The notes under the pieces were generated by a model. That model was not told the DNA's origin. It searched no databases and saw nothing but the letters and a program-made list of their open reading frames with translations. Below are positions 1,196-64,000 of a DNA stretch of 64,000 nucleotides, one piece after another; the first letter of the stretch is position 1, and each line of letters opens with the position of its first letter. The stretch comes from Ilex aquifolium. Taxonomy: Eukaryota; Streptophyta; Magnoliopsida; Aquifoliales; Aquifoliaceae. Location: positions 28,329,701 through 28,393,700 of the forward strand of contig OX637391.1 of NCBI GenBank assembly GCA_951799425.1, read 5' to 3'. A program made the translations under genes and the position numbers.

Positions 1196-3093
1196 TGATG
1201 AGCGCATAATATTGCATATTTGAAGGGCTCATTACATGCATTATAACTCAACTTTTGCATTTAAATATTTAGTGTTAGCCAAAATTGTCAATAATGTTGA
1301 TATTTTGATGTTGCATGTTTTTATACCTTAAATCATGTATTTTATAACCTTGCAACTATGATGGATGTGTGGTGAAGGAATAGACACAATACATGAAGAA
1401 TTGGAGGCTTAAAAGTGAAGAAATCAATAAGGCATTGGTGCTTGGGAACAAGGGCATCAACAGCCACATCATTTGGAAGCACTTCCTTGGTTTTCCTCCA
1501 TTTTGGCCATGATCTACTCAGAATCAGGAAAAGTTCAAAACATGAAAGTTGTAGATCTGGATGTCTTCTATATTTTTTCGAAATTTCAGCTCAATCGGAT
1601 GGTTGGATCAAAAGTTATGCCAATTCTACGACAACTGGTCCAGAGCAGACAACTACCGGAAATACCTACCGGTAGTTAGCACTCCAGTAGCAAATGACTA
1701 CCGGTAGTTATCACTCCAGTAGCTAATAACTACCGGTAGTCACTACCGGTAGGTCGTCCAGAAGTGCCCAGAACGACTTCTTTCTTGCTCCACTTGCTTG
1801 GGGGTCCCACCTACACTTCTCCCACGCCTAGCCTGACATTTTATCCCTACAACCATGCCTCCCTTACACAAATGGAAGACTTTGGAGGCTTGGCATTGAA
1901 TGAAGAGGAGAGAGAAGTGGGCTGCCATATGGGGTTGCAGGCTAGCCTGTCGAGACTCATCAACTCAGCCCCCTCTTGATGGGAGGCTTTGCACACACCT
2001 TGGGGGGACCACCATGCACGAAAATGCATGTCTCTACACTCCATACATTCAGCATTACACATTGTATGGGGTGGCTACCTAAGCTTAGAATGCTCCAAGG
2101 AAGAAGACAATGAATAGTGCTAGAAATTTATGTTTTTGCATTCTCTTCTCCATTTCAAGTGTAGTAAGCTTTTAGATATCATGTAATCTTTATTTCTTGC
2201 ACTTTAATCTTATTTATTTCAAGTCTATTGCAAGTTTAGTTTCATACTCTTGAATCTACCATTGTTGTATTAAGTTTTTATTCATTTCAAGCTTAAAATG
2301 TGTATTTCATATTTGTCTTCTTAGTTTAAGTTTTATTGTTTCAAGTTAAGTTTCATGCTTTAAATCTTCATTTCTCTTCCATGTCCATCTACATTATGCT
2401 TGTCTTGCATTTTTAATATGAGTAGCTAGGATTTAAGTTGGTTAATCCAAGGGAAAATTCCTCTTGGGAATACCATTTTCAACTCTTCTTCATTCCTCCC
2501 TTTAGAGTCAAATGGTTCGGTTTGACGGGGTTGAGAGTGGATGAGTTGGTGAGCCTTTGATATTCCGTAGGCCTAGTCACGGTTTATGCTTAGATACTCA
2601 CCAATCTCGTCCCTAGCTTCCCCCGAATCAATCGTTCATTCATGCTCAATCGGAGGAAGGCTTTGAGTTGATTTGGTATTCCCATTGGAATGAACCCTTT
2701 GGATTAGCCAACACTTGCTTTATTTGCATTTTCATTTACAAACCAAACACAAAACTCAAACAAAAGATTTTACATTTTCTTTTCACTTTTGCAAAATCAC
2801 TTTCACAAAACTCCCTTTCCTTCCCTGAGGAGACGACCTTGGAATACTCTTCCAAGTAAAACACCGACAACGAAAGACTCCTTGTGATTGGGGAGCACTT
2901 TTGTTCACCACACACGCATTTCATTTCATACATTTTGTTCATCACATTTCCATTCACATCCATTTTGTTGTTGTTTCCTATCTTTTTGCATCATCCGGAG
3001 GGAGAGTGACACTCCCCCATTCCTATAAGCTATACACATAGTTGAGGGTGATGTTAAGCGGTTAGGAAACAACACCGCATTACTTACCAATCA
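1196..3093 (+). mobile_element. solo LTR, LARD/Athila-type family (copy 1)
   Basis: 1898 bp, starting TGATGAGCGCATAATATTGC and ending ACCAATCA (TG...CA), flanked by the direct repeat GCTGC at 1191-1195 and 3094-3098. It interrupts gag of Tekay-A. It is a sister of the solo LTR 38181-40015 (same first 60 bp and same 3' half) and more distantly related to the LARD LTRs at 16036 and 19157 through the 3' half. No internal region, so it is the product of LTR-LTR recombination. It carries four CTACCGGTAG palindromes. Confidence 0.93.
1666..1752 (+). promoter_or_regulatory. palindrome array, CTACCGGTAG class, in solo LTR 1
   Basis: Perfect palindromes CTACCGGTAG at 1666-1675, 1698-1707, 1730-1739 and 1743-1752, with a half-matching copy near 1652. 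The first three are spaced 32 bp apart and separated by CACTCCAGTAG-like text. No clear TATAAAT box was seen downstream, unlike in the Tekay LTRs. The same class occurs in the Tekay-type solo LTR at 29498-29647. Function is inferred only from position. Confidence 0.8.
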
Positions 3094-3883
3094 GCTGCTC
3101 GCTGCACTCCACTGGTGCTAGGGTCCGTCCTGATCGGACCTCCTTTCGCGAAGCTCTGTCGCCGCTGGCTGTCCTCTATATCTCTCTCCACTAATGCAGC
3201 TCGGTCAACTAGGTCCCCATACTCCCGGATCTTGAGAGCCACCAGCTTCTCCCGGATAGCAGGCCTCAAGCCCTGCTGGCCTCAGTAGATATAAACTCTG
3301 TAGCATAACGGGATAGCTCATCGAAACTCCTCTCGTACTCGGTCACCGTCATGCTGCCCTGTCGGAGAGCAAGGAAATCGGCCTTCATTCTGTCTCTTAC
3401 TGATTCTGGAAAGTACTTGTCTTGGAAAATTTGGTCAAATTCCTCCCAAGTGAGTGCATCCGTGGTCCTCCTTCTTTTTACTGAGTCCCACCAATGGTCG
3501 GCCTCCCCCTCGAATAGATAAGTCGCCAAGCCGACCCGAAGATCCTCGGCTATCCCCATGCCATCACATATCTTCTTCACTCGACGGATCCATTTATCCG
3601 CATCCAAGGGGTTAGAGCTCCCTTGGAAAGTAGGCGGGTGTTGCCTCAGAAACTCTCGGAGAACTACCATTCTCCTATTCTCCTCTCTGTTGCCCGGTAC
3701 TTGGGCTAGTGGATGAGCCCCACCGTTATGGTTGTTCCCATTCTAGTGTTGTACCAGAGTGGTGAGCTCCCTCAAACACTGATAGATGCCATTAATTGCA
3801 TCGGGAGGTGGTGGCGGTGGTGGGTTTGTTTGACCTCCATTACCACGACCACGCCCTCGTCCACGTACACGTTCACCGTCCAT
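3094..3883 (-). pseudogene. Tekay-A gag, N-terminal and capsid part (fossil)
   Basis: Starts at the ATG near 3880 with an Arg-Gly rich stretch (RGRGRGRGNGG) and then a Pro-rich linker. The capsid-like part follows, with FLRQHPPTFQGSSNPLDADK, a WW-containing block (EADHWWDSVKRR) and FDQIFQDKYFPESVRDRMK, all typical of plant Ty3/gypsy gag (retrotrans_gag domain). It lies just downstream of the primer site, as expected. The solo LTR interrupts its far end. Broken fossil. Confidence 0.85.
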
Positions 3884-4057
3884 CCTGCACATCAATTTAC
3901 AATTTAGTTCCTCGATGTGCAAGACATCCTAGGTATCACTTTAGTCTATAACACAAGACGGGTGTGAAATCTAACTCAAACCCTTTTATTCAACTTAGTC
4001 CTAAGGCTCTAGTAGTAATCCATAACCTACAGCTCCCATGTAAGACCTAAAGCCTAA

Positions 4058-4069: not shown

Positions 4070-4073
4070 ACTT

Positions 4074-6268
4074 TGTAACGCCCCAAAACACACCCTGGAC
4101 GACATTACATTCTAAAACCATTTACATAATGAGAGCACTAAGATAATCCATCAATAAGAAAAATTTTCCATTCATCATCCATAGAATTTACAATATCATC
4201 CCAAAAGAATAAGCCAAGCTATGACCACAATATCAAAAGAATATGCCAAACTATGACATTTACATCTCAAAGGATCAAACGTAACTTAGCAACGGAATAA
4301 CAAAAGAAAACTAAACTTCACATGATTTCAAAATAAATTCTCAAGTCTAGTGTAAAAGAAGCTATGTCTCTACAGGTCCACCTCGAGATCTAGATTCCCC
4401 TCAGGTGGGGCCTCCCAATACCCCGGCTCGTCAACTCCGAGATTCTCCTCTAGCACCAAATCTGAAAATGTTTAACTGTAGGGGGTGAGCACTAAGCTCT
4501 GTAGCAACATTCCTCCCAAACTGGAACAAGGTTTATAAAAGCATATAAAATGGCCGGTCTCATTTCACAAATAGCATATATAATCTTTGAAGTAAAACAG
4601 AGACATTTTAGAATGGATCTCAAGTTTAAGTAACAACAGTAATTTAAATGAACAGTAAAAGAAACCAAGATCCAACACATATCCATTTCCCAAAATATAA
4701 ACCATTTTCCCACAAGACCTTGTGGAATCTCATACTCCCACAAGTGCTTGTAGGTAACCATTTTCCACAATAATCCAATAATCCATAACTTGAATATCCC
4801 ACAATCATATGTATATGTATCTCAAACATGATGTGAGACAAACCCCAGGAATCAACACATTGAGTAATATCTAGCCCACACACACCCACACAAATCTTAT
4901 TAAAGATATCCATCCTTTAGGAAGGGCGTATGCCATACCAATGGCAGTGACGTATTCAACCCAGGTATTAGTATACTAACCCTCTGACACGGCACCCGTG
5001 AGCAATAGCGGTTTAGTCTTACCAAAGCACTAACCCCACTACGAGTGGTAGGAAAAATGCCAACCCACACGGAGCAAGCAACACGCCTACCCACTCTACG
5101 ATATCTCGTCAAAGGCCACCCATGGTCATCCCACACTCATAAGAGATACAATACCAAACCCAATTTCACAATTTACAAGTATATCTTAAAAACCCCCAAA
5201 TTTATCACATGACAATTTCAATAAACAATTACAAAAATACAAGAGATCACCACAACATCATTTTATTACTCAACACCAAGCACTATGATTTCAAAATCAA
5301 TAATAAAGGAAGAATTTAAGAAGAAAACCATCACTCTCCAATAACTAGGGTTTTGAAACACAAAAAAAGATTTCATGGATATTCAACCCTAACTTTGTTA
5401 AAAACATGTAATCTTTGCCCAAAAGACTAAGAAATGATGATTTCATATCATATATATAACATTTAGAGCAAAACATACTTATATACATAAGTCCTAACCT
5501 CAATGTAAGAGAAAGAGAAGAAATCCCCTACCTTTCTTCTTCCTATGTGTTCTTGAAAACTTGAAGTTTTGATCTTCTTCAAGGTGCAAATCCTCATTTG
5601 ATCTTGTGTTTTCCCCTTCTTTCCTCCTCTCTAAGTCTTCCTAGGGTTTGAAATGTTGAAATGGGACTAATGGAGGCGTCCTTATGTATTTATAGGGTGA
5701 GAAATGGCCTCCTGTGCGCGATTCTGAAACCCAGAATTCGCAAGTCACGTTCGAACGTCATTGGCGTTCGAACGTTCGTCACTCCCAGTACTTTTGTTTT
5801 TCCATCAGAAAAGAGTACTGGAACGTACTTTCGTTCGAACGTTTATTCACGTTCGAACGTCGATTCACGTTCGAACGGAATTCCTGTTTCTACTGAAACT
5901 TCCAGTGAAGGTTTGGCCTATTTAGAGATTAATTTGGAAATTTTTCGTGAAATACTCTTTTGTAGCCCTAGAAGTATTCTATCTACTGTTAAAATTTCAG
6001 AGCCAACGGAAATTAGAATAAAAAGTTATGATCAAAATATTAGGAAGTGTCCAAAATCCTTTCTACCCAAGTTTTCTCTTAAATGTGCTTTCATTCCGAA
6101 AATCTTCCTAGCTTCTAATACATACCCTATGACACCGCCTAACTTTTTTATTGCTACTTTTCCAATCTACCAAATTCAAACACACATCACTACGCATATC
6201 CCCATTTTTACAACATTTGTTTACTATATATCTATATACATATATAAAAGAAAATGCGGGGTGTTACA
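4074..6268 (-). repeat. 5' LTR of Tekay-A
   Basis: 2195 bp. On the minus strand it starts TGTAACACCCCGCATTTTC and ends GGGGCGTTACA, giving an extended, near-11-bp inverted repeat at its ends. It contains a palindrome array and TATA box (5688-5878). A 78-codon open frame (4900-5136) recurs in the LTRs at 28648-28884, 42618-42854 and 47793-48029. It is closely related to the LTRs of Tekay-C. Confidence 0.93.
5688..5878 (-). promoter_or_regulatory. LTR promoter module: five CGTTCGAACG palindromes plus TATA
   Basis: Palindromes (core CGTTCGAACG, often extended to ACGTTCGAACGT) start at about 5748, 5765, 5832, 5850 and 5868, with 17-18 bp periods inside each cluster. Between the clusters lie CCAGTACT (5785-5792) and its inverse AGTACTGG (5814-5821). 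A minus-strand TATAAAT box is at 5688-5694, 52 bp from the nearest palindrome. Transcription would run towards 4074. TATA placement is ordinary for an LTR; a role for the palindromes is inference. Confidence 0.85.
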
Positions 6269-16035: not shown

Positions 16036-17694
16036 TGATTAGCACAATATATTGTATGATTCACATGTGCAAATCAATGTTAATTGAATGGTTTTTATAA
16101 TTAAAAGATGGAGTTTTACTTCATAATTTCTCAATTTAACATTTGATGATTGTAGGGTAAAAGTGCGCAACATAACCATCTTGAGGCTTCTCAAATACAT
16201 CAAGATGAATAAGGGTGAAGGAAAACCAAAGGCAAGCTCAACATGGGAGAACAGGAAGAAATTCAGGAAAAAAAGGGCTAGCGTACCGGTACGCTGACCC
16301 TACTGGAGTGCTGCGTACCGGTACGCCCGAAGGAATTTTGCCCAAATTCTGCGAACTTGTCTCAGCCGATTTTTGTGGACCCCACCATGTCTTCCCCCAC
16401 CTGCCTCCTGCAAGCCCACAACACTATTCATTGTGTTCACACCTCTTTTGGACTATTGATTGCAAGAGAGCATTGATGAGAGGAGTGAGAAGTTGAGCTG
16501 CTGGGTCTTGAGGAGTGCCCTGCCATGCCCTGTCCAAGCCATCACCCGCAACCTATTGATGGTGGCTCTACACACAGCTTGTGGGGACCACCATGCACGA
16601 AAATTGAAGGCTCACACTCCATATACTCAGCATTTTTCAGCATTGCAGAGGGGAGTGGCTACCTAAGCTTAGTTTTTTTGGACCTCCAAGGAGGAAGATG
16701 ATGAATAGTGACGTTTTTGCATTCGCTTCTCCATTCAAGTTGTAGAAATCTTTTTTAATCTCTTGTAAGGATCTTCTAAGTTTAATTTATTGTCTTTAAT
16801 CCCATTCCTTTCAAGTACATTGCAACTTTAGTTACATGTTCTAGCTTTCACCATTGTTGTATGAGTCTTTCCACTTCAAGCTTTTCTTAAAATGGGTATT
16901 GAATGTTTTTCTTCATAGTTTTAGATTTATTGCTTCAAGTTAAGTTTCATGCTTTAATCTCCATTTCCTTTATATGTCTATTTACATTATGCTTGTCTTT
17001 CATTTATGCATAAGTAGCTAGCTTTTAAGTTGGTTCGTGCAAGGGTGAATTCCATTTGGGGATTCCATTCCAACTCTCTTTCATTCCTTCTCTCGGTGTA
17101 TGTTGGCTCGGTTTGATTGGGTTGAGGGTGGATAAATTGGTGAGTCTTTGATATTCCGTAGGCCTAGTCACGGTTTATGCTTGGATACTCACCATTTTAT
17201 CCCTAGCTTCCCATGAATCAATCGTACTTCTAGGCACCATTGGAGGAAGGCTTTGAGTTGGCTTGATATTCCCATTGGAATGAACCTCTTGGATTAGCCA
17301 ACACTTGCTTTCTTGCATTTTCATTTTGAACAAAACTCAACAAAACACAAATACAAGATTTTACACTTTCTTTTCTCTTTTTGCAAAATCACTTTCATAA
17401 AACTCCCTTTCCTTCACTGAGGAAACGACCTTGGAATACTTTTCCAAGTAAAACACCAACAACAAGAGACTCCTTACGATTGGGGAGCACTTTTGTTCAC
17501 ACGCATTCCATTCCACATTTCATTCCATACATTTTGTTCATTCCACATTTCCATTCACATTTGTTGTTGCTCCTATATCTCTTGCATTATCCGGAGGGAG
17601 AGTGACATTCCCCCATCACTATAAGCCACATACACACATTGAGGGTGAGGGTGATGTTTAGAGGTTAGGATACAACAACGTTTTCCATCAATCA
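16036..17694 (+). repeat. 5' LTR of the LARD element
   Basis: 1659 bp. Palindromes GCGTACCGGTACGC lie at 16281-16294 and 16313-16326; the second is followed by CCGA. The 3' half shares long stretches with the solo LTRs at 1196 and 38181 (GGAGGGAGAGTGACACTCC, GGTTAGGA...CAACG). Confidence 0.93.
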
Positions 17695-24161: not shown

Positions 24162-24229
24162 TATATATAGAAAAAAGGAAGCAGGAGGTGGAGGCTTTGC
24201 ATGAGCTGCCTTTTGCCATCGTCCGGACG
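24162..24229 (-). promoter_or_regulatory. Athila-2 LTR promoter module: CGTCCGGACG palindrome plus TATA
   Basis: A perfect palindrome CGTCCGGACG lies at 24220-24229 and a minus-strand TATATATA box at 24162-24169, 50 bp downstream in the direction of transcription. Only one perfect copy is left. GGCGGTGGAGC near 24245 is a possible relic. The same palindrome core returns in the internal module at 60064-60094. Confidence 0.7.
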
Positions 24230-29961: not shown

Positions 29962-30294
29962 ACGTTCGAACGTGAGTTGGCGTTCGAACGTGACACTCAA
30001 GTACTTTAGAGCTCCAGTCTTCTTTCCTAACTGCAACACGCCTTCTCTTCAGCATTTGAGTCTGCTACAGTGTATTGTGGACGTTCGAACGTGAGTTGGC
30101 GTTCGAACGTTTTGGCTGTGCTCCAAGCTTCTCCAATTTTGGGCTCTAATGTACTGGTACTGCATCCAAGTGTGGTACTTGTTGTTCTTGGGTCCTTGTT
30201 CAGTTTAGGGCCTGAAATGACATCACTTAAACTCCATTAAAGTACAATTAGTCTTAAAATGTCATAATAATATGTCAAATTTAAGTACTAATCA

Positions 30295-41288: not shown

Positions 41289-42161
41289 CTTCTATGCATG
41301 AGAAATGAAAGCATAAACATAAGCATAAGCATAAAACTACTGTTATAACAAGCAAGAGATGTTGGGCTAAAGCCAAACTAATCTCTAAAATAAAGACTTC
41401 ATAAGGAAAATGAACTAACTACAATGAGAGTGGGAGTCTAAGCCTCCATCACTATTCTACTTCCTACTGTACTTTTTTCTTTTCTAGCTCTCCAACAAGG
41501 GGAGTATTTATAGGCAAGAGGATGATAAAAGGGGGGGGGGGGGTGAAAGAATAGTGTTTGCCGCCCAAGTCCAAGTGAACAGTCAACAACTCTGCTGCCA
41601 GTCTGTGAATGACGTTCGAACGTGAGTTGGCGTTCGAACGTTCTTTCTGTTTTTGAACTGAGGGCGTTCGAACGTTGACTGCCGTTCGAACGTTTCTTCT
41701 GTTTTTGCATTGAGGGCGTTCGAACGCCAGATTTGCTCTGACCCCTTTCACTCGAGTGATCTGTTGGTCTCTTGTGAAGTGCAGTTCCAACTCTCTGCAG
41801 TGGTCTGGTCTTCCATCAACTCAAGTGCACGTTCGAACGTGAGTTGGCGTTCGAACGTGACACTCAAGTACTTCAGAGCTCCAGTCTTCTTTCCTAACTG
41901 CAACACGCCTTCTCTTCAGCATTTGAGTCTGCTACAGTGTATTGTGGACGTTCGAACGTGAGTAGGCGTTCGAACGTTATGGCTGTGCTCCAAGCTTCTC
42001 CAATTTTGGGCTCTAATGTACTGGTACTGCATCGAAGTGTGGTACTTGTTGTTCTTGGGTCCTTGTTCAGTTTAGGGCCTGAAATGACATCACTTAAACT
42101 CCATTAAAGTATAATTAGTCTTAAAATGTCATAATAATATGTCAACTTTAAGTACTAATCA
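41289..42161 (-). repeat. partial 5' LTR of Athila-1
   Basis: 873 bp matching 27199-27740 and 29962-30294 of the 3' LTR. It carries all nine palindromes without the nested solo LTR, so it serves as the uninserted reference. A G-run (41531-41543) differs in length from the 3' copy. Confidence 0.92.
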
Positions 42162-46677: not shown

Positions 46678-48837
46678 TGTAACACCCCGCATTTTCTTTT
46701 ATATATGTATATAGATATATAGTAAGTATTTGTTGTAAAAATGTGGATATGTGATGATGTATGCATGAACTATGTAGATTGTTAGAGTAGAAATAAAAAT
46801 GTTAGGCGAGGTAATAGGGTATGTATTGGAAGCTAGGAAGTATTCCGGAGTGAAAGCACACTTTAGAGAAAATTTGGGTAGAAGAATTTTAGACACTGTC
46901 TTAGTGTTTGGATCATAACTTTTTATCCTGATTTCCATTTTGATCTGAAATTTTGACAGTGGATATTATACTTCCAGGGCTACAAAATAGTATTTCACGA
47001 AAAATTTCCAAATCAATCTCTAAATAGGCCAAAACTTCATTGGAAGTTAAAGCAAAAACAGGAATTCCGTTCGAACGTGAATCGACGTTCGAACGTGAAT
47101 AAACGTTCGAACGAAAGTGCATTCCAGTACTCTTGTCTGATGGAAAAACAGAAGTACTAGGAGCAACGACCGTTCGAACGCCAATGACGAATCTGGGTTT
47201 CAGAAATCACGCACAAGAGACCATTTCTCACCCTATAAATACATAAGGACGCCTCTCTTTGCATCATTTCAACATTTCTAACCCTAGGAAGACTTAGAGA
47301 AGAGGAAAGAAGGGGAAAAACACAAGATCAATGGAGGATTTACACATTGAAGAGGATCAAAACTTCAAGTTTTTCAAGAACACTAAGGAAGAAGAAGGTA
47401 GGGGTTTCCTTCCATTCTCTTACATTGAGGTTAGGGCTTATGTATATATGTATGTTTTGCTCTAAATGTTATATATATGATATGAAATCATCATCTCTTA
47501 GTCTTTTGGGCAAAGATTACATGTTTTAACAAAGTTAGGGTTGAATACCCATGAAATCTCTTTTTTGTGTTTCAAAACCCTAGTTTTTGGAGAGTGATGG
47601 ATTTTCTTCTTAAATTCTTCCTTTATTATTGATTTTGAAACCATAGTGCTTTGTGTTGAGTAATAAAATGATGTTGTGGTGATCTCTTGTATTTTTGTAA
47701 TTGTTTATTGAAATTGTCATGTGATAAATTTGGGGGTTTTAAAGATATACTTGTAAATTGTGAAATTGGATTTGGTATTGTATCTCTTATGAGTGTGGGA
47801 TGACCATGGGTGGCCTTTGACGAGATATCGTAGAGTGGGTAGACGTGTTGCTTGCTCCGTGTGGGTTGGCATTTCTCCTACCACTCGTAGTGGGGTTAGT
47901 GCTTTGGTAAGACTAAACCGCTATTGCTCACGAGTGCCGTGTCAGAGGGTTAGTATACTAATACCTGGGTTGGATACGTCACTGCCATTGGTATGGCATA
48001 CGCCCTTCCTAAAGGATGGATATCTTTGATAAGATTTGTGTAGGTGTGTGTGGGCTAGATATTACTCAATGTGTTGATTCATGGGGTTTGCTTTACATCA
48101 TGTTTGAGATACATATACATATGGATGGATTATTGTATTATTGTGAAAAATGGTTACCTACAAGCACTTGTGGGAGTATGGGATTCCACAAGGTCTTGTG
48201 GGAAAATGGTTTATATTTTGGGAAATGGATATGTGTTGGATCTTGGTTTCTTTTACTGTTCATTTAAATTACTGTTGTTACTTAAACTTGAGATCCATTC
48301 TAACATGTCCATGTTTTACTTCAAAGATTATATATGCTATTTGTGAAATGAGACCGGCCATTTTATATGCTTTTATAAACCTTGTTCGAGTTTGGGAGGA
48401 ATGTTGCTACAGAGCTTAGTGCTCACCCCCTACAGTTAAACATTTTCAGATTTGGTGCTAGAGGAGAATCTCGGAGTTGACGAGCCGGAGTATTGGGAGG
48501 CCCCACCCGAGGGGAATCTAGATCCCGAGGTGGACCTGTAGAGACATAACTTCTTTTATACTAGACTTGAGAATTTATTTTAAAATCATGTGAAGTTTAG
48601 TTTTCTTTTGTTATTCCGCTACTAAGTTACGTTTGATCCTTTGAGATGTAAATGCCATAGTTTGGCATATTCTTTTGATATTGTGGTCATAGCTTGGCTT
48701 ATTCTTTTGGGATGATATTGTAAATTCTATGGATGATGAATGGAAATTTTTTTTTATTGATGGATTATCTTAGTGCTCTCATTATGTAAATGGTTTTAGA
48801 ATGTAATGCCGTCCAGGGTGTGTTTTGGGGCGTTACA
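46678..48837 (+). repeat. 3' LTR of Tekay-C
   Basis: 2160 bp from TGTAACACCCCGCATTTTC to GGGGCGTTACA. Four palindromes (47068, 47086, 47104, 47171) against five in the 5' LTR. TATAAAT is at 47234-47240. The 78-codon frame is at 47793-48029. Confidence 0.95.
47068..47240 (+). promoter_or_regulatory. Tekay-C 3' LTR promoter module, CGTTCGAACG class
   Basis: Three palindromes with exact 18-bp period (47068-47113), the AGTACT pair, a fourth palindrome at 47171-47180, a 53-bp gap, then TATAAATAC. Confidence 0.87.
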
Positions 48838-49081: not shown

Positions 49082-51382
49082 TGTAACACCCCACATTTTC
49101 GTTCATATAGATATATAGATATAGCAAATAATGGTTGTAAAGATGTGGATAGGGGTATTGAAGTGTGTTTGAACTTTGTAAATTTGAAAAGTAAAGATTT
49201 AAAATGTTAATGAAAATCATAGTTGAAATTTAGTTTTAGTGAGTGAAAATATAAAATGTTAGGTCCTATAACTTGTATTAGATAGGTTTGGTGTATAAAT
49301 ATGTGTTGGAGAGGTTTGTGATGGATTTGGTTAGTTTTGGAATGGATTGGAAATGGAAAACAAAAGAAATAGGCAAAACTGGGTAAATGGTACCGGTACT
49401 GAATGGTACCGGTACTAAGTACCGGTACCCAGATTCCAGAAGGTTTCTTGTACCGGTACTGGGTACCGGTACTGAATGGTACCGGTACTGAGTACCGGTA
49501 CTACCGAAACCAGACTGTTTATTTTAAAGTCGCGAATTTCGGTCTCTCTCTCTCTCTCCCTATAAATACTTAAGGCCGACTATTTGAGCCCCATTTCAGC
49601 CTTCTAAACCCTAGGCACCTTTAGAGAGAAAGAGAGGGAGAGAAGAACATCAAAGATAAGGAGAGATACACCATTTTAGAAGATTAAAATCCTAGATTTC
49701 TAAGATTTCATCTCTCTACTCATTCTCTTTTCTTCCCTTCTTCACCCACTCTCACCCAAATCTTTTGAAAACCCTATGGAGAGGAGATTAAAAGGAAAAA
49801 AAAGGAAAGCAAGAAGGTCTTGAAGCTTGGGTAATTGGCTAAAACTCTTGAGCATTGAGGTAGAGGATTTCTTCCTAATCTCTTACATTGAGGCTAGGGT
49901 TTATGGATATATATATATATATGTTTTTCACTCTTATCCTTATATACATGATAAGAAATACATGATTCTTGTTCCTCTTGAAATAAATGCCATGTTTTGA
50001 ACATTGTGATGGTTGGGTAACTATTAAATTTCTCTTTTTCATCTTCAAACCTTGGTTTTAAAGAGAAATGGACTTTTCCCTCTAATTTTCCTTGGTATTG
50101 CTTTCAAAACTTTAGTGTTTGATATTGTACACCAAAATGTTACTTATGATGATCTCTTGCTCATTTTCTTCCATCATATTATGAAACATTATATTCGAAA
50201 TTGTGGAATTTGGTAATTCCTTGAAATGTTGATGAATTGAGAATATTTTGGTTTCCTCAATTGTATGGTTGTTGTGAGGGACTTGGATTGCCTTCAAGAG
50301 ATGCCGTAGAGTGTTAGAGGTTAGTCTACCCCAGTGGGGGTGAGATGGTTTCCTAGCACTTGTAGTGGGTTGTCATTTGGTAATGAAACCACTATCGTTC
50401 ACTGGAGTTCGAACAAGGGATAGTATACTTTTCCTGGGAAGGGACTCGTCACTGCCATTGGGATGGTAGACGCCATTTCCTAAAATGCTTGTGAATGTGA
50501 TTGTGATTGGTGGACTAGGTATAATCGTTGGGTAGATTCATGAGAATCAATTAACATACATGGTACGGGGATGAACCAATATACTTGGGATGATGAGTTG
50601 GAACGTCTCGGCCGGTGCATTGGTATGGGACAATGCATCGGAAGACGCCCTTCCGAATTGGCCTAACTTTGGACACGGTGTATTGTTGTTCAATTTAATT
50701 TATTCTTTTACTTGATTGTTGTTATGGTTTAAACTTGAGATCTATTTAAAATATCCTGCTTTTCCTTCAAAATGTTATATATGCTATTTGTGAAAATGAG
50801 ACCAACCGTTTTATATGCTTTCCTAAACCTTGTTTGAGTTTGGGAAGATTTTGCTACAGAGCTTCGTGCTCATCCCCTACAATTAACATTTTTCAGATGA
50901 TGTTATAGAGGAGGAGCTTGGCGCTAATGAGCCGGGCCTTGGGGAAGCCTCATTAGAGGGGTACCTGGATCCCGAGTGGGACATGTAGAGATGCCCCTTT
51001 TATTTTTGTACTAGACTAGGAACCAATATGTACAAACATTGTAAAGTCCAGTTTCTTTTGAAATTCCGCTGCAATATATTCATGTAATTCTTTTGGGTTG
51101 TAATGGCCTTAGTTTGGCTTATTCTTTTGGGATGATTGTTGTGGATAGTATATATGGTGAATGAAATATTTTGGATTTGATGGTTAGATAGACCCGGTGT
51201 GGTCAAGGTATTATAAATGTACAGGTTGTGAGTTTTGGGAGAGCTTCCCGTACGAAGGAGACTCTGCCCAAATTTTGTTAAAATTAAGAATGTTTCTTAT
51301 TTGATGGATATATATTTAGTGCTCTCATGATGTGAATGTTTTAGAATGTAATGCCGTCCAGGGTGGTATTTGGGGCGTTACA
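49082..51382 (+). repeat. 5' LTR of Tekay-D
   Basis: 2301 bp, TGTAACACCCCACATTTTC...GGGGCGTTACA. Contains seven GTACCGGTAC palindromes (49390-49501) and TATAAAT at 49561-49567. Confidence 0.94.
49390..49567 (+). promoter_or_regulatory. Tekay-D 5' LTR promoter module, GTACCGGTAC class
   Basis: Perfect palindromes start at 49390, 49406, 49419, 49450, 49463, 49479 and 49492, so starts are 16 or 13 bp apart (spacers TGAATG, TAA, TGG, TGA). TATAAATAC follows after 59 bp, with a CT repeat in between. Confidence 0.87.
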
Positions 51383-51385
51383 GAA

Positions 51386-52394: not shown

Positions 52395-52521
52395 CGTACC
52401 GGTACGCGTACCGGTACGCCGAACTCCAGTAGCTAAACCGTACCGGTACGCGTACCGGTACGCCCGATAAAGCCCAGCCCGATCCAACTTCCGGTCTTTC
52501 TCCATTTCTTCCACTATAAAT
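52395..52521 (+). promoter_or_regulatory. promoter module, paired CGTACCGGTACG class
   Basis: Two pairs of abutting 12-bp palindromes (period 12), the second followed by CCCGA. TATAAATAC lies 52 bp downstream. The LARD LTR has the same pairing and the same CCCGA extension (19435-19462). Confidence 0.87.
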
Positions 52522-55790: not shown

Positions 55791-58110
55791 TGTAACACCC
55801 CGCATTTTCGTTCATATAGATATATAGATGTAGCAAATAATGGTTGTAAAGATGTGGATAGGGGTATTGAAGTGTGTTTGAACTTTGTAAATTTGAAAAG
55901 TAAAGATTTAAAATGTTAATGAAAATCATAGTTGAAATTTAGTTTTAGTGAGTGAAAATATAAAATGTTAGGTCCTATAACTTGTATTAGATAGGTTTGG
56001 TGTATAAATATGTGTTGGAGAGGTTTGTGATGGATTTGGTTAGTTTTGGAATGGATTGGAAATGGAAAACAAAAGAAATAGGCAAAACTGGGTAAATGGT
56101 ATCGGTACTGGGTACCGGTACTGAATGGCACCGGTACTGAGTATCGGTACCCCGATTCCAGAAGGTTTCTTGTACCGGTACTGGGTACCGGTACTGAATG
56201 GTACCAGTACTGGGTACCGGTATTGAATGGTACCGGTACTACCGAAACCAGACTGTTTATTTTAAAGTCGCGAATTTCGGTCTCTCTCTCTCCCTATAAA
56301 TACTTAAGGCCGACTATTTGAGCCCCATTTCAGCCTTCTAAACCCTAGGCACCTTTAGAGAGAAAGAGAGGGAGAGAAGAACATCAAAGATAAGGAGAGA
56401 TACACCATTTTAGAAGATTAAAACCCTAGATTTCTAAGATTTCACCTCTCTACTCATTCTCTTTTCTTCCCTTCTTCACCCACTCTCACCCAAATCTTTT
56501 GAAAACCCTAGGGAGAGGAGATTAAAAGGAAAAGAAAGGAAAGCAAGAAGGTCTTGAAGCTTGGGTAATTGGCTAAAACTCTTGAGCATTGAGGTAGGGG
56601 ATTTCTTCCTAATCTCTTACATTGAGGCTAGGGTTTATGGATATATATATGTTTTTCACTCTTATCCTTATATACATGATAAGAAATACATGATTCTTGT
56701 TCTTCTTGAAATAAATGCCATGTTTTGAACATTGTGATGGTTGGGTAACTATTAAATTTCTCTTTTTCATCTTCAAACCTTGGTTTTAAAGAGAAATGGA
56801 CTTTTCCCTCTAATTTTCCTTGGTATTGCTTTCAAAACTTTAGTGTTTGATATTGTACACCAAAATGTTACTTATGATGACCTCTTGCTCATTTTCTTCC
56901 ATCATATTATGAAACATTATATTCAAAATTGTGGAATTTGGTAATTCCTTGAAATGTTGATGAATTGAGAATATTTTGGTTTCCTCAATTGTATGGTTGT
57001 TGTGAGGGACTTGGATTGCCTTCGAGAGATGTCGTAGAGTGTTAGAGGTTAGTCTACCCCAGTGGGGGTGAGATGGTTTCCTAGCACTTGTAGTGGGTTG
57101 TCATTTGGTAATGAAACCACTATCGTTCACTGGAGTTCGAACAAGGGATAGTATACTTTTCCTGGGAAGGGACTCGTCACTGCCATTGGGATGGTAGACG
57201 CCATTTCCTAAAATGCTTGTGAATGTGATTGTGATTGGTGGACTAGGTATAATCGTTGGGTAGATTCATGAGAAGCAATCAACATACATGGTACGGTGAT
57301 GAACCAATATACTTGGGATGATGAGTTGGAATGTCTCGGCCGGTGCATTGGTATGGGACAATGCATCGGAAGACGCCCTTCCGAATTGGCCTAACTTTGG
57401 ACACGGTGTATTGTTGTTCAATTTAATTTATTCTTTTACTTGATTGTTGTTATGGTTTAAACTTGAGATCTATTTAAAATATCCTGCTTTTCCTTCAAAA
57501 TGTTATATATGCTGTTTGTGAAAATGAGACCAACCGTTTTATATGCTTTCCTAAACCTTGTTTGAGTTTGGGAAGATTTTGCTACAGAGCTTCGTGCTCA
57601 TCCCCTACAATTAACATTTTTCAGATGATGTTATAGAGGAGGAGCTAGGCGCTAATGAGCCGGGCCTTGGGGAAGCCTCATTAGAGGGGTACCTGGATCC
57701 CGAGTGGGACATGTAGAGATGCTCCTTTTATTTTTGTACTAGACTAGGAACCAATATGTACAAACATTGTAAAGTCCAATTTCTTTTGAAATTCCGCTGC
57801 AATATATTCATGTAATTCTTTTGGGTTGTAATGGCCTTAGTTTGGCTTATTCTTTTGGGATGATTGTTGTGGATAGTATATATGGTGAATGAAATATTTT
57901 GGATTTGATGGTTAGATAGACCCGGTGTGGTCAAGGTATTATAAATGTACAGGTTGTGAGCTTTGGGAGAGCTTCCCGTACGAAGGAGACTCTGCCCAAA
58001 TTTTGTTAAAATTAAGAATGTTTCTTATTTGATGGATATATATTTAGTGCTCTCATGATGTGAATGTTTTAAAATGTAATGCCGTCCAGGGTGGTATTTG
58101 GGGCGTTACA
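55791..58110 (+). repeat. 3' LTR of Tekay-D
   Basis: 2320 bp, near-identical to 49082-51382. The palindrome array (56099-56239) has nine units, several imperfect, against seven perfect ones in the 5' LTR. TATAAAT is at 56295-56301. Confidence 0.94.
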
Positions 58111-58762: not shown

Positions 58763-59833
58763 TTACAGTAGCCTCAAGATTTCTGCTTGGTTCTGCTCAT
58801 AATCATCCATACGCTGATTGAGTTGATTAATAGTGGTTTCCAATCCTAGCAAAATTTGTCTGTCAGTTCTGTCATCCACTGGTATGTATGGTTGATCCTC
58901 TTGTGGCTGCTGCTGTTCTTGCGGAATGAATTCTTCAGGTACTTGGAATGGTTCATCTTGTGGTGGAGGTGGTGCTTCAGGTTGCTCTTCAGGCTGTCCT
59001 CCATGACTCTTTTTCAATGAAGTTTTATCCAATGCTCCAAAATGGTCCACTGTTTTCCATATAGGATCAATAATCACACCCTTGTTCCTGCATAGCTGAG
59101 AAACTAACATAGCATATGGAAGTGAAGGTTTCTTTCCATCCACATCAAGCAACATTTGGTCCATGATTAAGTTTGGAAGATCAATTGTGTGTCCCATCCC
59201 AAAAACATATACAAAGTAAGTTTGCTCAGTATAAATCTGATTTTACTGAGCTCGGGGTAATAAACTGTTCATTGTTATCAAATTTAGAATTCGATATTTG
59301 TCTGTCAGATCCCCTTGCTTTATGTATTTATTTGGTCTACCCCAAACAAACTCTGGATTACCCATTAATTCTCTCCCTACATCATTCAAATCAGGTAATT
59401 CAATGTGAGGATATTGAGGGTTTTCTGGTCTTTACATGGGTTGAAATAATTCGGCTATAGTAGTCGGTGTAACTTGAAAACAATACCCCGAACGAACACA
59501 CGCAATTGTCTTTCTCCAATTATCTCAGCATTACTATAAAACTCACGAACTAAACAATCATAAGTAGGCGCAACAAATCTAACATAATGCAACCATCCTG
59601 TTTCAGCAAGAATTTGTCTTACTCCTATGTTCTCAAAATCCTCATAAATAACTGGTCGTTCAGAAATAATAGTTTTTGTCATAAAATTAGCATCATACTA
59701 GGCATGTTGTTCAAAATTTTCAAATATCACCTCATTGAAGATATTCCCTGGTCCAAGTTGTTGTGGAGGTGCTTGAGGTTGATCTCTTTGTGCATGGCTT
59801 GAAGATCTTCTCGTTCGTCGTCTTGAATCCATG
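58763..59833 (-). pseudogene. Athila-2 extra ORF in env position (fossil)
   Basis: Minus strand from a Met near 59833 (MDSRRRTRRSSSHAQRDQP). A domain follows with CLVREFYSNAEI and VFVRGIVF, matching the Athila-1 ORF at 32125-33243. The C-terminal part is Pro/Gln-rich (QPEEQPEAPPPPQDEPFQ) and ends in a coiled-coil-like stretch (ETTINQLNQRMDDYEQNQAE). Sequence identity with Athila-1 is low outside short blocks, but the layout is the same. Broken in a few places. Confidence 0.72.
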
Positions 59834-60045: not shown

Positions 60046-60094
60046 ATTTATAGGGGCACTGCTGTCCGGACACTAGGCCCACCGTCCGGACGGT
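60046..60094 (-). promoter_or_regulatory. internal promoter-like module of Athila-2, GTCCGGAC class
   Basis: On minus: a 14-bp perfect palindrome ACCGTCCGGACGGT (60081-60094), a second GTCCGGAC (60064-60071), an 11-bp gap, then TATAAAT (60046-60052). The extra ORF starts about 210 bp on. It has the same arrangement as 33459-33490 in Athila-1 but a different palindrome class, which matches this element's own LTR (24220-24229). Confidence 0.75.
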
Positions 60095-60419
60095 GCTGCA
60101 TAGCTGGTTTTTTGGCTTTGTAACTGTAGACTGCTGCTTCTTAGTTCCTGTAATTCTGCTCTTTTTTCTTTAAATTCCTACAGTGTACAAAATTAAAAAC
60201 AATTTTATCTATTCTACAAAACTTTGCTAACCACTCTTTTTCTTTTCAAAAATTGATGGTTTTTATTTTTTATTTGTTATTTATTATTTACTAATTTTCC
60301 TAATTAATTTATAGTTATTTACATTTATTTACAATTATGTACAATTTTTCCAAAAATCATATCTCATTTTATCATACTGATTCATAGTCAGAACTGTCTG
60401 GATTAGTGATACCAGTCAC

Positions 60420-60782
60420 ACGGTTAACTTCACTTCTTACGTATCTTGTTAACATTATGGTAGAATAGGATGGCGCCTCAGGATAATCCTTACTCTATCC
60501 ATACCTAATCCACCGTAGACGATCTAACGCTCGACCTGAAATTGGTTCCGCACACTGATTATATTATCTCAAATGTTCTGTACGACCACATCTTACACAA
60601 CCACCGCAACGATTTTTTTGTCGGTGTTTAGCAAATGTACTTTTTTCACACAGGAGTCTTGGTTGACTTTCAAAAATTTCTAAATTTCTAACTTTTCTTA
60701 CTTTTTGCATGATCAATGCATGTATATCTTTTGGAACATGATGTAGTAGAATTAAACTTAACAAAAATTGTTTTTCGTCCAT
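60420..60782 (-). pseudogene. Athila-2 copy of the small Cys/Arg-rich ORF (fossil)
   Basis: Minus strand MDEKQFLLSLILLHHVPKDI, then STFAKHRQKNRCGGCVRCG with CX2C, and further on QCAEPISGRALDRL, which aligns with the Athila-1 protein (SSFAKRRRAKRLGACKQCG; QCSEPISGRALDRL). Same place: between pol and the extra ORF. Clearly diverged from Athila-1, so the ORF is an old part of this lineage. Broken. Confidence 0.7.
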
Positions 60783-61149
60783 TGTATAATAAAAATGAAA
60801 ATAAAAAAAAAAACTTAACCAAAATAGGTTAGAAATTTATATATATATATTTAAAATAAGTTGACTCTTTATCTGGTTCTTTTATGTCTGTCAGTCACAA
60901 AGACAAACAAATTTAAAACAAAATTAGTGCTCTAAATACAAATAATAAATTCACACCCATACCTCCCCAACTTAAATTAAACATTATCTGCAATGTAAAA
61001 ATAGTGATAATCAACATTGACAAGAAAATTCAGCAATCTGTTGTTGTTTCACCGATTGGAATATCTGGCTGTTACTTAGGAGATTTACTCTGTCAAATAA
61101 ATTACAACTAATTAGTAATATTATGGAGAATTAAGCAACAATTTATTTT

Positions 61150-61817: not shown

Positions 61818-61851
61818 AAGATTTTCAAAAAATTTATTGCAAAAATGTAAT

Positions 61852-64000
61852 TGTAAACCCCCACATGTTTAGATTAATATAGTAATATAATTTTCTAGTA
61901 ATTCTAATAAAAGCAATGATGTAAGAATAAACTAAATAGATTGTAATAGTAGGAATAAATACTAGGGAGACAAATGGATTGAGAAGTTTAAGTTTCGAAG
62001 GTGTGTAAACTTGAGAAGAGAGATTATGGAAGTTTCTAAATATTTTTAGGTCAAAATAAGTTGTCCATTGAATCCGGAAGGTCGAAAAACATTATGAAAG
62101 GTAATATGGGGTGTATTGGAAGCTAGGAAGTATTCCGGAGTGAAAACACACTTAGAGAGAATTTGGGTAAAAAGGAGTTGGGACACCTTCTAGTATGTAG
62201 GTAATAACTTTGTATCCTTATATCCAATTGATCTGAAATTTGGACAGTAGATAGTAGACATCTAGGGATACAAAAGTGTATCTCATGAAAATTTTCCAAT
62301 TCGACCTCTAAATGGGTCAAAACTTCCCTGGAAGTCGGAGCAAAAATCTGTCAGTCAAACCATACCGGTACATAGTACCGGTACGCCCGACTACAGTAGC
62401 TAAACCGTACCGGTATGCCCGAAAGAAAACCTGATATTCTGAACAATAAATGTCGGGTTTTGGCTCAAAACTTAGCACTATAAATACCTCAAAACATCTC
62501 TTTAGCCTCATTACTCCACTCCTAACCCTAGAAACACTTAGAGAGAAAGAAAGGAAGAGAGAAACTCAAAATCAAAGGGAAAAAACACAAGATTTAAGGG
62601 TGATTCAAGATTCAAGCCCTAGATTTCAAGAACACCAAGGTAGGGGTTTTCTCTCACTCACTTACATTGAGGCTAGGGTATTTATATATGTATGCTTTGG
62701 CTATCAATGGTATATATATGATATGGAATCATCATCTCTTAGGCTTTTTGGCAAAGATTACATGTTTGAACAAAGTTAGGGTTTAATACCCATGAAATCT
62801 CTTCTCTAGTTTTAAAACCCTCATTTTTGTAGAGTGATGTATTTCCTTCTTAAATGCTTTCTTTATTATGGATTTTCGAAACCTTAGGCTTTGTGTTGAG
62901 TATTGAAATGCTATTGTACATGATCTTTTGTATTTTTCTTCATTGTTATTTGAAATTGTCTCATGATGGATTTGTGGATTTTAAGGAATTTGCTTGAGAA
63001 TTTGGGGGTTTATGGTATTGTTGGTTATGTGAGATATTTGTTGGTATTTTATCTCTTGCGTGGTTGTACAATACGAACATGGATTACTATGGACCGGGTA
63101 TCATGTAGTGGGTAGACGTCTTTGTATGCCACGCGGGTATGAACTTTTCCTACCACATGGAGTGGGTAGACGCCTTTGTACGCCGTGTGGGTATGAACTT
63201 TTCCTATCACTAATGATCACGGATTAGTAACGTGGGTTGTGTCGTACATACAGTGTGGGTTCTAGTGCATTGTACCAGAAATAGTTTCGACAAGAGTTTC
63301 GGGAAGTATGGGATTCCGCGAGAACTTGTTGGAAACGGTTTATGGTAGAATGGATTACCAATGGTATATTGTGTTTATTTATCCATTTCAATTACTGTTG
63401 CTATCTAAACTTGAGATCTGTTTAAATGTTTGTGTTTTACTTCAAATGTTATATATGTTATTTGAGAAATGAGACCGACCGTTTTATATACTTTTCTAAA
63501 CCTTGTTTGGGTTTGAGAGGATTTTTCTACAGAACTTTGTGCTCACCCCCTACAGTTGAACATTTTTCAGATTTGGTGCCCGAGGATGGGCTCGGTGCTA
63601 ATGAGCCAGGCCATGGAGAGGCTTCACTAGAGGGATATTTGGATCCCGAGTGGGACATCTAGAGATGTCGTTTACTTTTATTCTAGACTAGAATATTCTT
63701 TTGAAACACTGTGTAGTCTAGATTTCTTTTGTAATTTCCGCTGCGCTGTAATAGTTAAATTTTCTTTTGGAAATGTAAAGGCCAAAGATGGCATATTCTT
63801 TTGGGATGATATTGTAGATATTACCTATGGTGAATGAAATTTTATTTTGTGAAGTATAAATGGACCCGGTGTGGTCAATGTAGTATAATTGCACAGGTTA
63901 TGTATTTGGGTAGAGCTCCCCGTACAAAGGAAACTTTGCCCGAATTTTGTTAAATTAAGGAATGATTTCTATGAAGTCTTATTTATGGATGGTTTATCTT
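61852..64000 (+). repeat. Tekay-E LTR, cut by the window end
   Basis: Starts with a degenerate TGTAAACCCCCACATGTTT. From about 61910 it follows the LTR 51873-54105 closely, and reaches within about 100 bp of the expected LTR end. I cannot tell whether it is a solo LTR or the 5' LTR of an element continuing to the right. Older or faster-changing than Tekay-D, judging by the start. Confidence 0.82.
62362..62485 (+). promoter_or_regulatory. Tekay-E promoter module, (C)GTACCGGTAC class
   Basis: ATACCGGTAC (62362), GTACCGGTACGCCCGA (62375) and CGTACCGGTATGCCCGA (62406), so both later copies carry the GCCCGA extension seen in the LARD LTRs. TATAAATAC is at 62479, 62 bp after the last palindrome. 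Confidence 0.82.

Follow-up and report, generated by a model that had tools for sequence, protein, structure and literature searches.

Tandem arrays of short CG-centred palindromes were found on the promoter side of LTRs in Ilex aquifolium and, within an array-bearing, non-Tekay lineage of Ty3-type elements, again before a PF20167 accessory gene, with the same motif at both places in 7/7 elements in which both were read. These arrays could be the operators of a regulator encoded by the elements themselves, wired like Tas of foamy viruses, diversified like the targets of VANC proteins and common to other retrotransposons, a reading on which our judgment is almost evenly divided.

The window, i.e., the whole stretch analysed (64,000 nt, OX637391.1, 28,329,701-28,393,700), contained 169 perfect palindromes of at least 10 bp, of which 77 were CG-centred, versus 68.7 ± 7.6 (max 84) and 6.8 ± 2.6 (max 14), respectively, in 40 first-order Markov sequences. 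The same array classes were present in an independent sample of 20 evenly placed 10-kb stretches outside the window (contigs C1-C5, 200 kb). When a cluster was defined as the recurrence of one CG-centred 10-mer palindrome, 26 clusters were found in window and sample together (264 kb); words centred on AT and on TA formed 0 and 0 (two-letter-only words left out) and GC-centred words formed 2, both of GTACGCGTAC, which overlaps adjacent GCGTACCGGTACGC units. Throughout the 800-Mb genome, copies numbered 51,910 for GTACCGGTAC (reversed control, 907), 22,728 for CTACCGGTAG (353), 12,048 for ACGTTCGAACGT (44), and 8,992 for CGTCCGGACG (134), a 57- to 274-fold excess for four words that were all picked since they had been seen in the window. 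For the spaced pair TACCGGTA-N30-60-CTATAAATA the counts were 2,771 versus 4. All five recurring palindrome words fit SKWYCGRWMS, a plan that was drawn up with these words in view. Across lineages, the array spacers repeatedly contain another short motif, CCAGTA (23 versus 1.07 expected; 14 of 23 arrays).

Table 1. Palindrome arrays and associated genes in the window
Feature	Position	Strand	TATA box or remark
(A)CTACCGGTAG(T) array, LTR 1196-3077 (TGATGAGCGC...)	1666..1752	+	no TATA within 160 bp
ACGTTCGAACGT array, U3 of Tekay-type LTR 4074-6268(-)	5747..5878	-	TATAAAT 52 bp on
GCGTACCGGTACGC pair, LTR 16036-17694 (TGATTAGCAC...)	16280..16326	+	no TATA within 160 bp
GCGTACCGGTACGC pair, LTR 19157-20827 (partner of 16036-17694)	19434..19459	+	no TATA within 160 bp
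Single CGTCCGGACG	24220..24229	-	TATATA 50 bp on
CGTTCGAACG array, U3 of Tekay-type LTR fragment from 25426	25815..25944	+	TATAAAT 53 bp on
CGTTCGAACG array, TATA-side part, split 3' LTR of element Y	27519..27635	-	TATAAAT 95 bp on
(G)ACTACCGGTAGT(C) array, U3 of solo Tekay-type LTR 27741-29961(-)	29497..29648	-	TATAAAT 53-54 bp on
CGTTCGAACG array, other part of Y 3' LTR	29962..30109	-	split off by Tekay-type LTR 27741-29961
PF20167 ("putative plant transposon protein") ORF of Y from ATG	32565..33242	-	frame ends within domain
CGTTCGAACG array before Y accessory gene, presumed internal promoter	33477..33778	-	TATAAAA 11 bp on
Carlavirus-type nucleic-acid-binding protein ORF (PF05515/PF01623) of Y	34051..34470	-	between integrase and internal array
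pol of Y	35064..38057	-	RT, RNase H, and integrase, each in an open frame of its own
GTACCGGTAC array, LTR 38181-40018 (TGATGAGCAC...)	38641..38680	+	no TATA within 160 bp
CGTTCGAACG array with nine exact copies, Y 5' LTR (from 42161)	41612..41976	-	TATAAAT 99 bp on
CGTTCGAACG array, U3 of Tekay-type LTR 46678-48837	47068..47180	+	TATAAAT 53 bp on
GTACCGGTAC array, U3 of Tekay-type 5' LTR 49082-51382	49390..49502	+	TATAAAT 58-59 bp on
GCGTACCGGTACGC array, U3 of Tekay-type LTR from 51873	52395..52463	+	TATAAAT 51-52 bp on
GTACCGGTAC array, partly decayed, LTR 55791-58110 (partner of 49082-51382)	56099..56240	+	TATAAAT 55 bp on
Degenerate PF20167 gene of element Z	58766..59832	-	
CACCGTCCGGACGGTG + TGTCCGGACA before accessory gene of Z	60063..60095	-	TATAAAT 10 bp on
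Degenerate carlavirus-type binding-protein gene of Z	60378..60785	-	gene order as in Y
Decayed GTACCGGTAC array, U3 of Tekay-type LTR	62362..62416	+	TATAAAT 62 bp on

An earlier note on this DNA had listed nine of these sites as arrays of perfect palindromes at a fixed distance from the TATA box in almost every LTR. All nine are present, with gaps to TATAAAT or TATATA of 52, 50, 53, 54, 53, 59, 52, 55, and 62 bp in order of position, and most are arrays; that at 24220 is a single palindrome, beside a segment (24506-24712) that matches the internal region of a PF20167 element at its polypurine-tract end, next to the LTR L037, and several units of the arrays at 56099 and 62362 have decayed. Nine further arrays were found (starting at 1666, 16280, 19434, 27519, 29962, 33477, 38641, 41612, and 60063). 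The distance is fixed in most Tekay-type LTRs only, a name taken from the earlier note, the matches here being to LTR ends, RVP_2, zf-CCHC, and SH3_Tf2-1 only; elsewhere it ranges from 6 to 171 bp or no TATA box was found. By scan, a TATA box directed away from the array was present within 160 bp in 18 of the 26 clusters (that at 29962 is spurious), and 8 had none. In a Tekay-type U3 outside the window (L041), TATATA follows the array at only 6 bp, and the distance is therefore not fixed in every Tekay-type LTR. No TATA box was found for the LTR arrays of L036, L039, L042, and L020. The arrays are also not confined to LTRs. Those inside elements have a TATA box 10-36 bp on in Y, Z, L004, L026, L027, and L039, and the first one at 171 bp in L025, whereas in L042 and L020 a search up to 250 bp found none; judged by sequence, the internal site does not look like a promoter in every element (L025, L042, L020).

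In the lineage of elements Y and Z, the accessory ORF lies in sense and its sole match is PF20167. With a Pfam gathering cut-off of 45, scores were 100 in L026, 72.3 in L025, 67.0 in L032, and 45.2 in Y, and the fragment in Z scored 29.5, below the cut-off; the genes of L039 and L042 were identified by tblastn only. Part of the pol of Y (37611-38057) had no Pfam match. Palindrome coordinates were used to retrieve seven loci as candidate sites of the gene, and the PF20167 gene was present in 5/5 where it was expected, the expectations having been formed before the sequences were read, without a written record; in the other two (L040 and L041), retrieved with no such expectation, no PF20167 gene was found. 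Five motifs are represented in the agreement between LTR and internal site, i.e., CGTTCGAACG in Y, CTTCCGGAAG in L020, CTACCGGTAG in L025/L036 and in L039, CGTCCGGACG in L026/L037 and L027/L038, and GTACCGGTAC in L042. Part of this agreement is descent, because array and gene are inherited together; in L025/L036 the internal and LTR arrays agree at 96% along 125 bp.

When diverged elements with a common motif were compared, palindrome positions were kept at 30/30 versus 163/257 (63%) elsewhere, and in a second such comparison at 48/50 versus 177/242 (73%). The palindromes were kept despite their CpGs. An array has moreover been exchanged between Tekay-type LTRs that otherwise align, and the U3 of L041 carries a CGTCCGGACG array in sequence 87% like window positions 52050-52380. 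The earlier note's description of operator-like sites on the promoter side, whose sequence changes, agrees with these results, and the Tekay-B pair (10018-12077, 20962-23022) that it had described as free of arrays indeed contains no CG-centred palindrome of at least 10 bp.

The accessory genes are under purifying selection, dN/dS of PF20167 being 0.05-0.23 between diverged copies of the same motif; it was 0.6-1.0 among very close copies with few changes, and 0.49-0.72 between motif groups (four computable values, near-saturated sites). The PF20167 distance correlates with the motif distance among seven subfamilies (Mantel r 0.55, p 0.024). The motif does not strictly follow PF20167 identity: L025 and L039 both carry CTACCGGTAG at 48% identity, and the protein of L020, an element with a different motif, resembles each of the two at 51-53%. 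The C-terminal stretch of the product resembles a coiled coil in several copies. A structure model of it was too poor (mean pLDDT 35, with only the C-terminal blocks at 331-350 above 60) to show a DNA-binding fold.

Motifs of the PF20167 lineage are also present in Tekay-type and Ty1/copia LTRs. Locus L012 is a Ty1/copia element, with an RVT_2 polymerase and a copia gag between array-bearing LTRs, and a copia LTR and the internal array of L027 have 22 bp exactly in common. Neither these common motifs nor the second array before the accessory gene had been noticed in the earlier note.

As proposed here, the arrays would be promoter-side operators (enhancers) maintained by selection, and their owner would be the non-Tekay Ty3-type lineage, in which an LTR promoter would drive gag-pol and a second promoter, between pol and the 3' LTR, the PF20167 gene, both bearing tandem copies of one CG-centred palindrome. 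The PF20167 product may bind this palindrome as a homodimer and, as an activator rather than a repressor or anti-silencing factor, would first raise its own expression by way of the internal promoter, and next the expression of gag-pol by way of the LTR, like Tas. From one subfamily to another, its specificity and the operators would change jointly, as for VANC and the VANC targets, and Tekay-type and Ty1/copia LTRs with the same palindromes would use the factor in trans. It is possible, though we are rather doubtful, that one lineage encodes a fast-diversifying dimeric PF20167 regulator whose palindrome marks its LTR and accessory-gene promoter, that chromovirus-like and Ty1/copia elements captured matching cassettes and use the regulator in trans, and that new pairs of regulator and operator emerge and spread across the retrotransposons of the genome.

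In plant retrotransposons such as Tnt1 and Tto1, the U3 enhancer repeats likewise place short activator sites, in several copies, before the TATA box of the LTR; those repeats are read by host factors and belong to single families, whereas the present palindromes are exchanged between subfamilies and match an array in front of the accessory gene. The VANDAL elements of Arabidopsis are DNA transposons of the MULE type. Their VANC anti-silencing proteins read target repeats, and the motifs described, YAGTATTAY and AGTTGTCC/AGTTGTAC, are not palindromes (PMC5735166, PMC10398659). Both systems have short noncoding tandem motifs that diverge quickly between related elements, and reading by an element-encoded protein has been shown for VANC and is proposed here; the present elements differ in the CG-centred palindromes and their promoter-side position, and are LTR retrotransposons with gag/pol domains, no MULE transposase match being found among the frames scanned. 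The earlier note's suggestion of a symmetric binding protein with VANC as parallel gains a candidate element-encoded partner in PF20167, without involvement of a MULE or VANC gene as far as these frames show, and its interpretation as a whole is partly supported. Foamy viruses have the transactivator Tas, with an LTR and an internal promoter (PMC10534306). As there, an LTR-flanked element carries, near its 3' end, an accessory gene behind its own site, and the LTR and that site bear one motif; this layout, with the gene near the 3' LTR, was found in all seven elements. Unlike Tas, PF20167 is a plant retrotransposon family without match to a known transactivator, and here the sites are tandem perfect palindromes of many motif classes per genome, occurring also in other lineages, with promoter and binding putative. 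The pol domains are Ty3-type and no env match was found among the frames scanned, which does not place these elements in Spumaretrovirinae. Additional ORFs between pol and the 3' LTR, suggested DNA binders, are also described for Retand elements, with their TRP28 ORFs (PMC11963269), and for maize Grande, whose gene23 has its own promoter (PMC11963269, PMC7264820). Both kinds run antisense, and TRP28 belongs to PF04195, whereas the ORF here is PF20167 and in sense; three PF20167 proteins scanned gave no TRP28 match at E up to 10.

Another explanation, which we consider unlikely, is that the palindromes are host transcription factor sites, several lineages having acquired enhancer modules such as those already known from plant LTRs, with the internal array a copy of the LTR module and PF20167 in another role. 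This would accommodate the arrays in elements without a PF20167 match nearby (Tekay-type LTRs, copia, L040), the LTR-derived look of the internal array of L025/L036, the recurrence of CCAGTA across lineages and the failure to see a DNA-binding fold in PF20167. However, with five or more palindromes built on a single plan, several host factors, for which there are no obvious candidates, would have to share a preference for symmetric CG-centred sites, and the correlation with PF20167 divergence would be accident or mere descent. It is considerably less probable that the regulator is the carlavirus-type zinc-finger protein of Y. A protein of this kind, p12 of Chrysanthemum virus B, is reported to activate transcription in the nucleus and to suppress RNA silencing (PMC7588395), and the gene adjoins the internal array in 8/8 fetched best-match loci (one being the window copy) and in L004. 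A first look at the genome gave 4,092 candidates, of which the best 150 were scored, about 138 of these being without stop (counted by eye); dN/dS was 0.16-0.31 for four copies, and the proteins of Y and Z, which have different palindromes, are 54% identical overall (30/48 positions in the zinc-finger stretch). However, no match was found in the spans read of L025, L026, L027, L020, L039, and L042 (upstream span about 0.5 kb in the last two), all with arrays of other motifs.

Very improbable, to our mind, is that the arrays are host silencing sites (e.g., for CG methylation or as small-RNA nuclei) whose turnover is escape: the units contain CpGs and LTR 55791-58110 has more decayed units than its partner, but perfect silencing sites would not be expected to be kept in two places over deep divergence or shared across lineages. 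Arrays without regulatory role, whether as slippage-prone repeats, as by-products of recombination that spread when elements were copied, or as favoured targets of integration, would suit the tandem layout, the solo Tekay-type LTR inserted inside a palindrome (5-bp target duplication ACGTT) and the report that LTR retrotransposons often target palindromes (PMC6911290), but are disfavoured, with hardly any probability left to them, by the CG-only centring, the promoter-side position, the conservation against diverged flanks and the occurrence in separate lineages.

If PF20167 reads the palindromes, plant retrotransposons would own Tas-like transactivation circuits with exchangeable specificities, and different superfamilies would parasitise each other's regulator. 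This would give a concrete handle on joint bursts of particular retrotransposon families in one genome, and would offer natural operators in tens of thousands of copies, together with the matching protein variants, for studies of the evolution of DNA recognition. Even with a host factor as reader, a deeply conserved CG-centred palindromic enhancer common to Ty1/copia and Ty3 elements would be a strong and testable regulatory code.

Perfect palindromes of at least 10 bp numbered 169 in the window, 77 of them CG-centred, against 68.7 ± 7.6 palindromes and 6.8 ± 2.6 CG-centred ones expected from 40 first-order Markov sequences. The nine sites listed in the earlier note as tandem CG-centred arrays were all present and ended 50-62 bp before TATAAAT or TATATA, but the one at 24220-24229 is a single palindrome and not an array; the window also has nine more arrays or parts of arrays. 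An independent sample of twenty evenly placed 10-kb stretches from contigs C1-C5 (264 kb with the window) held 460 palindromic 10-mers, including 65 CG-centred ones. The commonest CG-centred words in the sample were CTACCGGTAG (17), CGTCCGGACG (9) and GTACCGGTAC (7), followed by TGATCGATCA (7, six of which lie in the single locus L024), CGTTCGAACG (5) and CTTCCGGAAG (4). Clusters with a recurring word in the 264 kb were CG-centred in 26 cases, compared with none each for AT and TA, two-letter words being excluded, and two for GC, both overlapping GCGTACCGGTACGC units. The recurring words, CGTTCGAACG, GTACCGGTAC, CTACCGGTAG, CGTCCGGACG and CTTCCGGAAG, all fit SKWYCGRWMS (5/5), a pattern drawn post hoc from these five. 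A satellite-like repeat in the fetched locus L024 (8373-9849), several of whose units are spaced by about 180 bp, also carries a CG-centred palindrome, ATGATCGATCAT.

Genome-wide counts (800,232,872 bases, 103 contigs) were made for words all picked from the window, with the pattern read backwards as the control. GTACCGGTAC occurred 51,910 times (control 907), CTACCGGTAG 22,728 (353), ACGTTCGAACGT 12,048 (44) and CGTCCGGACG 8,992 (134), and TACCGGTA-N30-60-CTATAAATA gave 1,663 + 1,108 matches versus 4 + 0; in the first hundred or so among the matches listed, its spacers were about 52 to 59 bases long and the intervening sequence was variable. The asymmetric word CTACCGGTAC was absent from the 264 kb versus 30 + 26 occurrences of two symmetric words, and another asymmetric neighbour, GTACCGGTAT, occurred four times, but this rarity is weak evidence because the arrays are homogeneous by descent. 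Conservation was seen between copies, with motif positions set on the first sequence of each compared pair. The LTRs L038 and L037 share 73% identity over 979 columns, and in their array segment the palindrome positions agreed at 30/30 versus 163/257 of the other positions; for the internal arrays of L026 and L027, which precede the accessory gene, the values were 48/50 and 177/242. CpGs, as in these palindromes, are expected to decay faster if methylated. The LTR at 55791-58110 has more decayed palindrome units than its partner LTR. The arrays are very probably selected cis-regulatory sites. That they are sites of host transcription factors is an unlikely explanation.

In a scan for the position of the palindromes relative to the TATA box, an outward-pointing TATA lay within 160 bp of 18 of the 26 clusters versus 0.286 at random points (binomial 2e-5, treating copies of one element as if independent, which they are not), one of the 18, at 29962, being spurious because the adjoining DNA is an inserted LTR. 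None of the 26 clusters had an outward TATA on both sides in that scan; under a looser TATATA criterion both flanks of the array at 33477 carry one. The fixed distance claimed in the earlier note, about 50-62 bp, held for the window LTRs of the chromovirus-like Tekay type and for the listed TACCGGTA-N30-60-CTATAAATA copies, but not in general. A Tekay-type U3 outside the window (L041) has TATATA 6 bp past its array; the LTR distance is 93-99 bp in element Y-type copies, 62 bp in L037, 90 bp in L038 and 31 bp in the copia element L012. Internal arrays lie 10-36 bp from a TATA in elements Y and Z, L004, L026, L027 and L039, and 171 bp in L025; two of the nine, in L042 and L020, have none within 250 bp. 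No TATA was found within 160 bp of the array in the LTRs at 1196, 16036, 19157 and 38181, nor within 250 bp of the LTR arrays of L036, L039, L042 and L020; these LTR promoters, of the CCGG-centred PF20167-lineage group, may be TATA-less. One spacing rule for every lineage is rejected, as the distances run from 6 to 171 bp or no TATA is present.

In the window, eight U3 regions of the Tekay type could be aligned on both array flanks and at the TATA box, but the arrays between differ: three carry CGTTCGAACG, two carry CGTACCGGTACG or a decayed form of it, another two GTACCGGTAC, and one ACTACCGGTAGT. As far as its array, which consists of CGTCCGGACG, the U3 of L041 matches window positions 52050-52380 at 87% identity. 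At least 17 copies of a Tekay-type promoter match, about 5.1 kb apart and in the same direction, were found at C1:28180090-28261992(-) among the matches listed; they form a run of tandem LTR elements lying some 70-150 kb ahead of the window. Two Tekay-type internal regions (45110-45881 and 54484-55014) contain 30-bp tandem repeats (TTTGTTCTTGATTTCAA...).

The Ty3-type element Y carries a second array before its accessory PF20167 gene.

Features of element Y, in the order of its genes
Feature	Window position	Strand	Remarks
5' LTR with CGTTCGAACG array	from 42161	-	
gag-protease frame	40012-41418	-	PF13650
pol domains	37607-35064	-	
Carlavirus-type nucleic-acid-binding ORF	34470-34051	-	PF05515/PF01623
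Second CGTTCGAACG array	33778-33477	-	TATAAAA 11 bp further on
PF20167 ORF	start 33242	-	
Polypurine tract	near 30300	-	
3' LTR	two parts, split by solo Tekay-type LTR	-	97.6-98.2% identity to 5' LTR

The solo LTR (27741-29961, minus strand) was inserted within a ACGTTCGAACGT-type palindrome of element Y and is flanked by the target duplication ACGTT. The degenerate element Z (58.5-61.3 kb) has the same gene order, with CACCGTCCGGACGGTG. Among four loci fetched solely for containing ACGTTCGAACGT, L001 and L002 are a single Y-type LTR, and L004 repeats the Y gene order with TATAAAA 13 bp past the final palindrome. L003, which spans 3 kb, contains the carlavirus-type gene and a single palindrome but gave no match to PF20167.

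A PF20167 gene in fitting orientation was found at 5/5 array groups expected to flank one (L025, L026, L027, L039 and L042). These groups (C1:5933853, 3225071, 6619756 and the pairs 8955461/8957750 and 7634735/7636704) were picked from palindrome coordinates, the expectation being without an advance written record and the orientation for the last pair having been left open beforehand; L040 and L041, fetched alongside L039 but not on that expectation, gave no PF20167 match. In L025, L026 and L042 the PF20167 frame is open over the sequence that was read. The palindrome of the internal array recurs in the adjacent arrays (L036, L037 and L038, and those inside L039 and L042); these follow a shared polypurine tract and LTR start, the one in L039 being similar as judged by eye. 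In L020, AAACCTTCCGGAAGGTTT-type arrays precede the PF20167 ORF and are also present in the LTR that follows it. With Y and L020 included, the LTR palindrome equals the internal palindrome in 7/7 elements, representing five motifs.

That the PF20167 product reads the palindromes of its own LTR and internal site, which other lineages would use in trans, has in our estimation slightly less than an even chance of being correct. Pairwise identity of the protein correlates with half-site differences (Mantel r 0.55, p 0.024, seven subfamilies; r 0.63, p 0.001 for nine sequences including near relatives). One protein group has half-sites ending in ACG (L026, L027 and Y; Z less clearly) and the other GGTAG, GGTAC and GGAAG (L025, L039, L042, L020). 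Against a strict code, however, the same palindrome is found in L025 and L039, whose proteins are 48% identical, and L020, with a different palindrome, is equally close to both. The dN/dS of PF20167 was 0.05 for L026/L027 (synonymous sites near saturation), 0.13-0.23 between two CGTTCGAACG subgroups and 0.6-1.0 among near-identical copies with few changes; between motif groups four computable values were 0.49-0.72, most pairs not being computable. Structure modelling gave no usable fold, with pLDDT >60 only in two blocks (331-350, last helix), and the C-termini of L026, L025 and P0015 appeared coiled-coil-like by eye. Protein searches outside this genome gave one match for the window PF20167 ORF and none for L026.

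It is improbable that the regulator is instead the carlavirus-type zinc-finger protein. The carlavirus p12 activates transcription in the nucleus and suppresses RNA silencing (PMC7588395, in part), and the zinc-finger stretch of the element protein differs between Y and Z, with 30/48 positions alike. The gene adjoins CGTTCGAACG arrays at 8/8 best-match loci (one being the window copy) and at L004 and L003, and is also found in element Z; it was not found in the spans read in L020, L025-L027, L039 and L042, and PF20167 is the more constant companion of the arrays. The dN/dS of the carlavirus-type gene was 0.16-0.31 (four copies), and the best 150 of 4,092 first-look genome candidates were scored, 12 having a stop (counted by eye). 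Since the same gene order recurs in other retrotransposon copies and the first-look candidates number thousands, the ORF is an element gene, and an endogenous carlavirus fragment at 34051-34470 is rejected. Ten outside matches to the gene (window 34051-34470(-) and ~60378-60785(-), L028-L035) lie on contigs <3 kb.

The wiring proposed for PF20167 is the same as in foamy virus, in which Tas activates the LTR as well as the internal promoter from which it is itself expressed (PMC10534306, in part), and the likeness to VANC lies in changing tandem targets (PMC5735166, in part). Retand has extra ORFs near the 3' LTR for which DNA binding was suggested, but these are antisense and of another family than the PF20167 gene (PMC11963269, in part). 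In a text search of open-licence papers for four palindromes and two longer strings, which matched 340, the 15 titles listed included none on plant LTRs. By title and start of abstract, the open-licence matches listed contained no description of tandem palindromes as LTR promoter sites, nor of PF20167 or a carlavirus-type protein within a retrotransposon; the available text of the domain screen PMC9289625 names neither PF20167 nor a carlavirus-type domain, and 'palindrom' was not found in that of PMC11656987. The system as a whole is without earlier description among these listed matches, as far as their titles and abstract openings go.

The palindromes are shared across lineages. L012 is a Ty1/copia element (RVT_2, copia gag) with GCGTCCGGACGC arrays in both LTRs, and it shares the 22-base string ACTGGAAGTCGCGTCCGGACGC exactly with the internal array of L027. 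Every palindrome of the Tekay-type and copia LTRs read here recurs in PF20167-lineage LTRs. A second constant short motif between palindromes, CCAGTA/TACTGG, occurred 23 times versus 1.07 expected, in 14/23 arrays of different lineages. A few spacer stretches of 14-18 bases match between arrays of the Tekay type and those of the PF20167 lineage (E 0.002-0.007 each, over many comparisons), which suggests that cassettes may have been exchanged between the two. It is conceivable, though somewhat doubtful, that these elements share an operator language, in which the PF20167 lineage would encode the candidate regulator and the chromovirus-like and Ty1/copia elements would use captured palindromes in trans.
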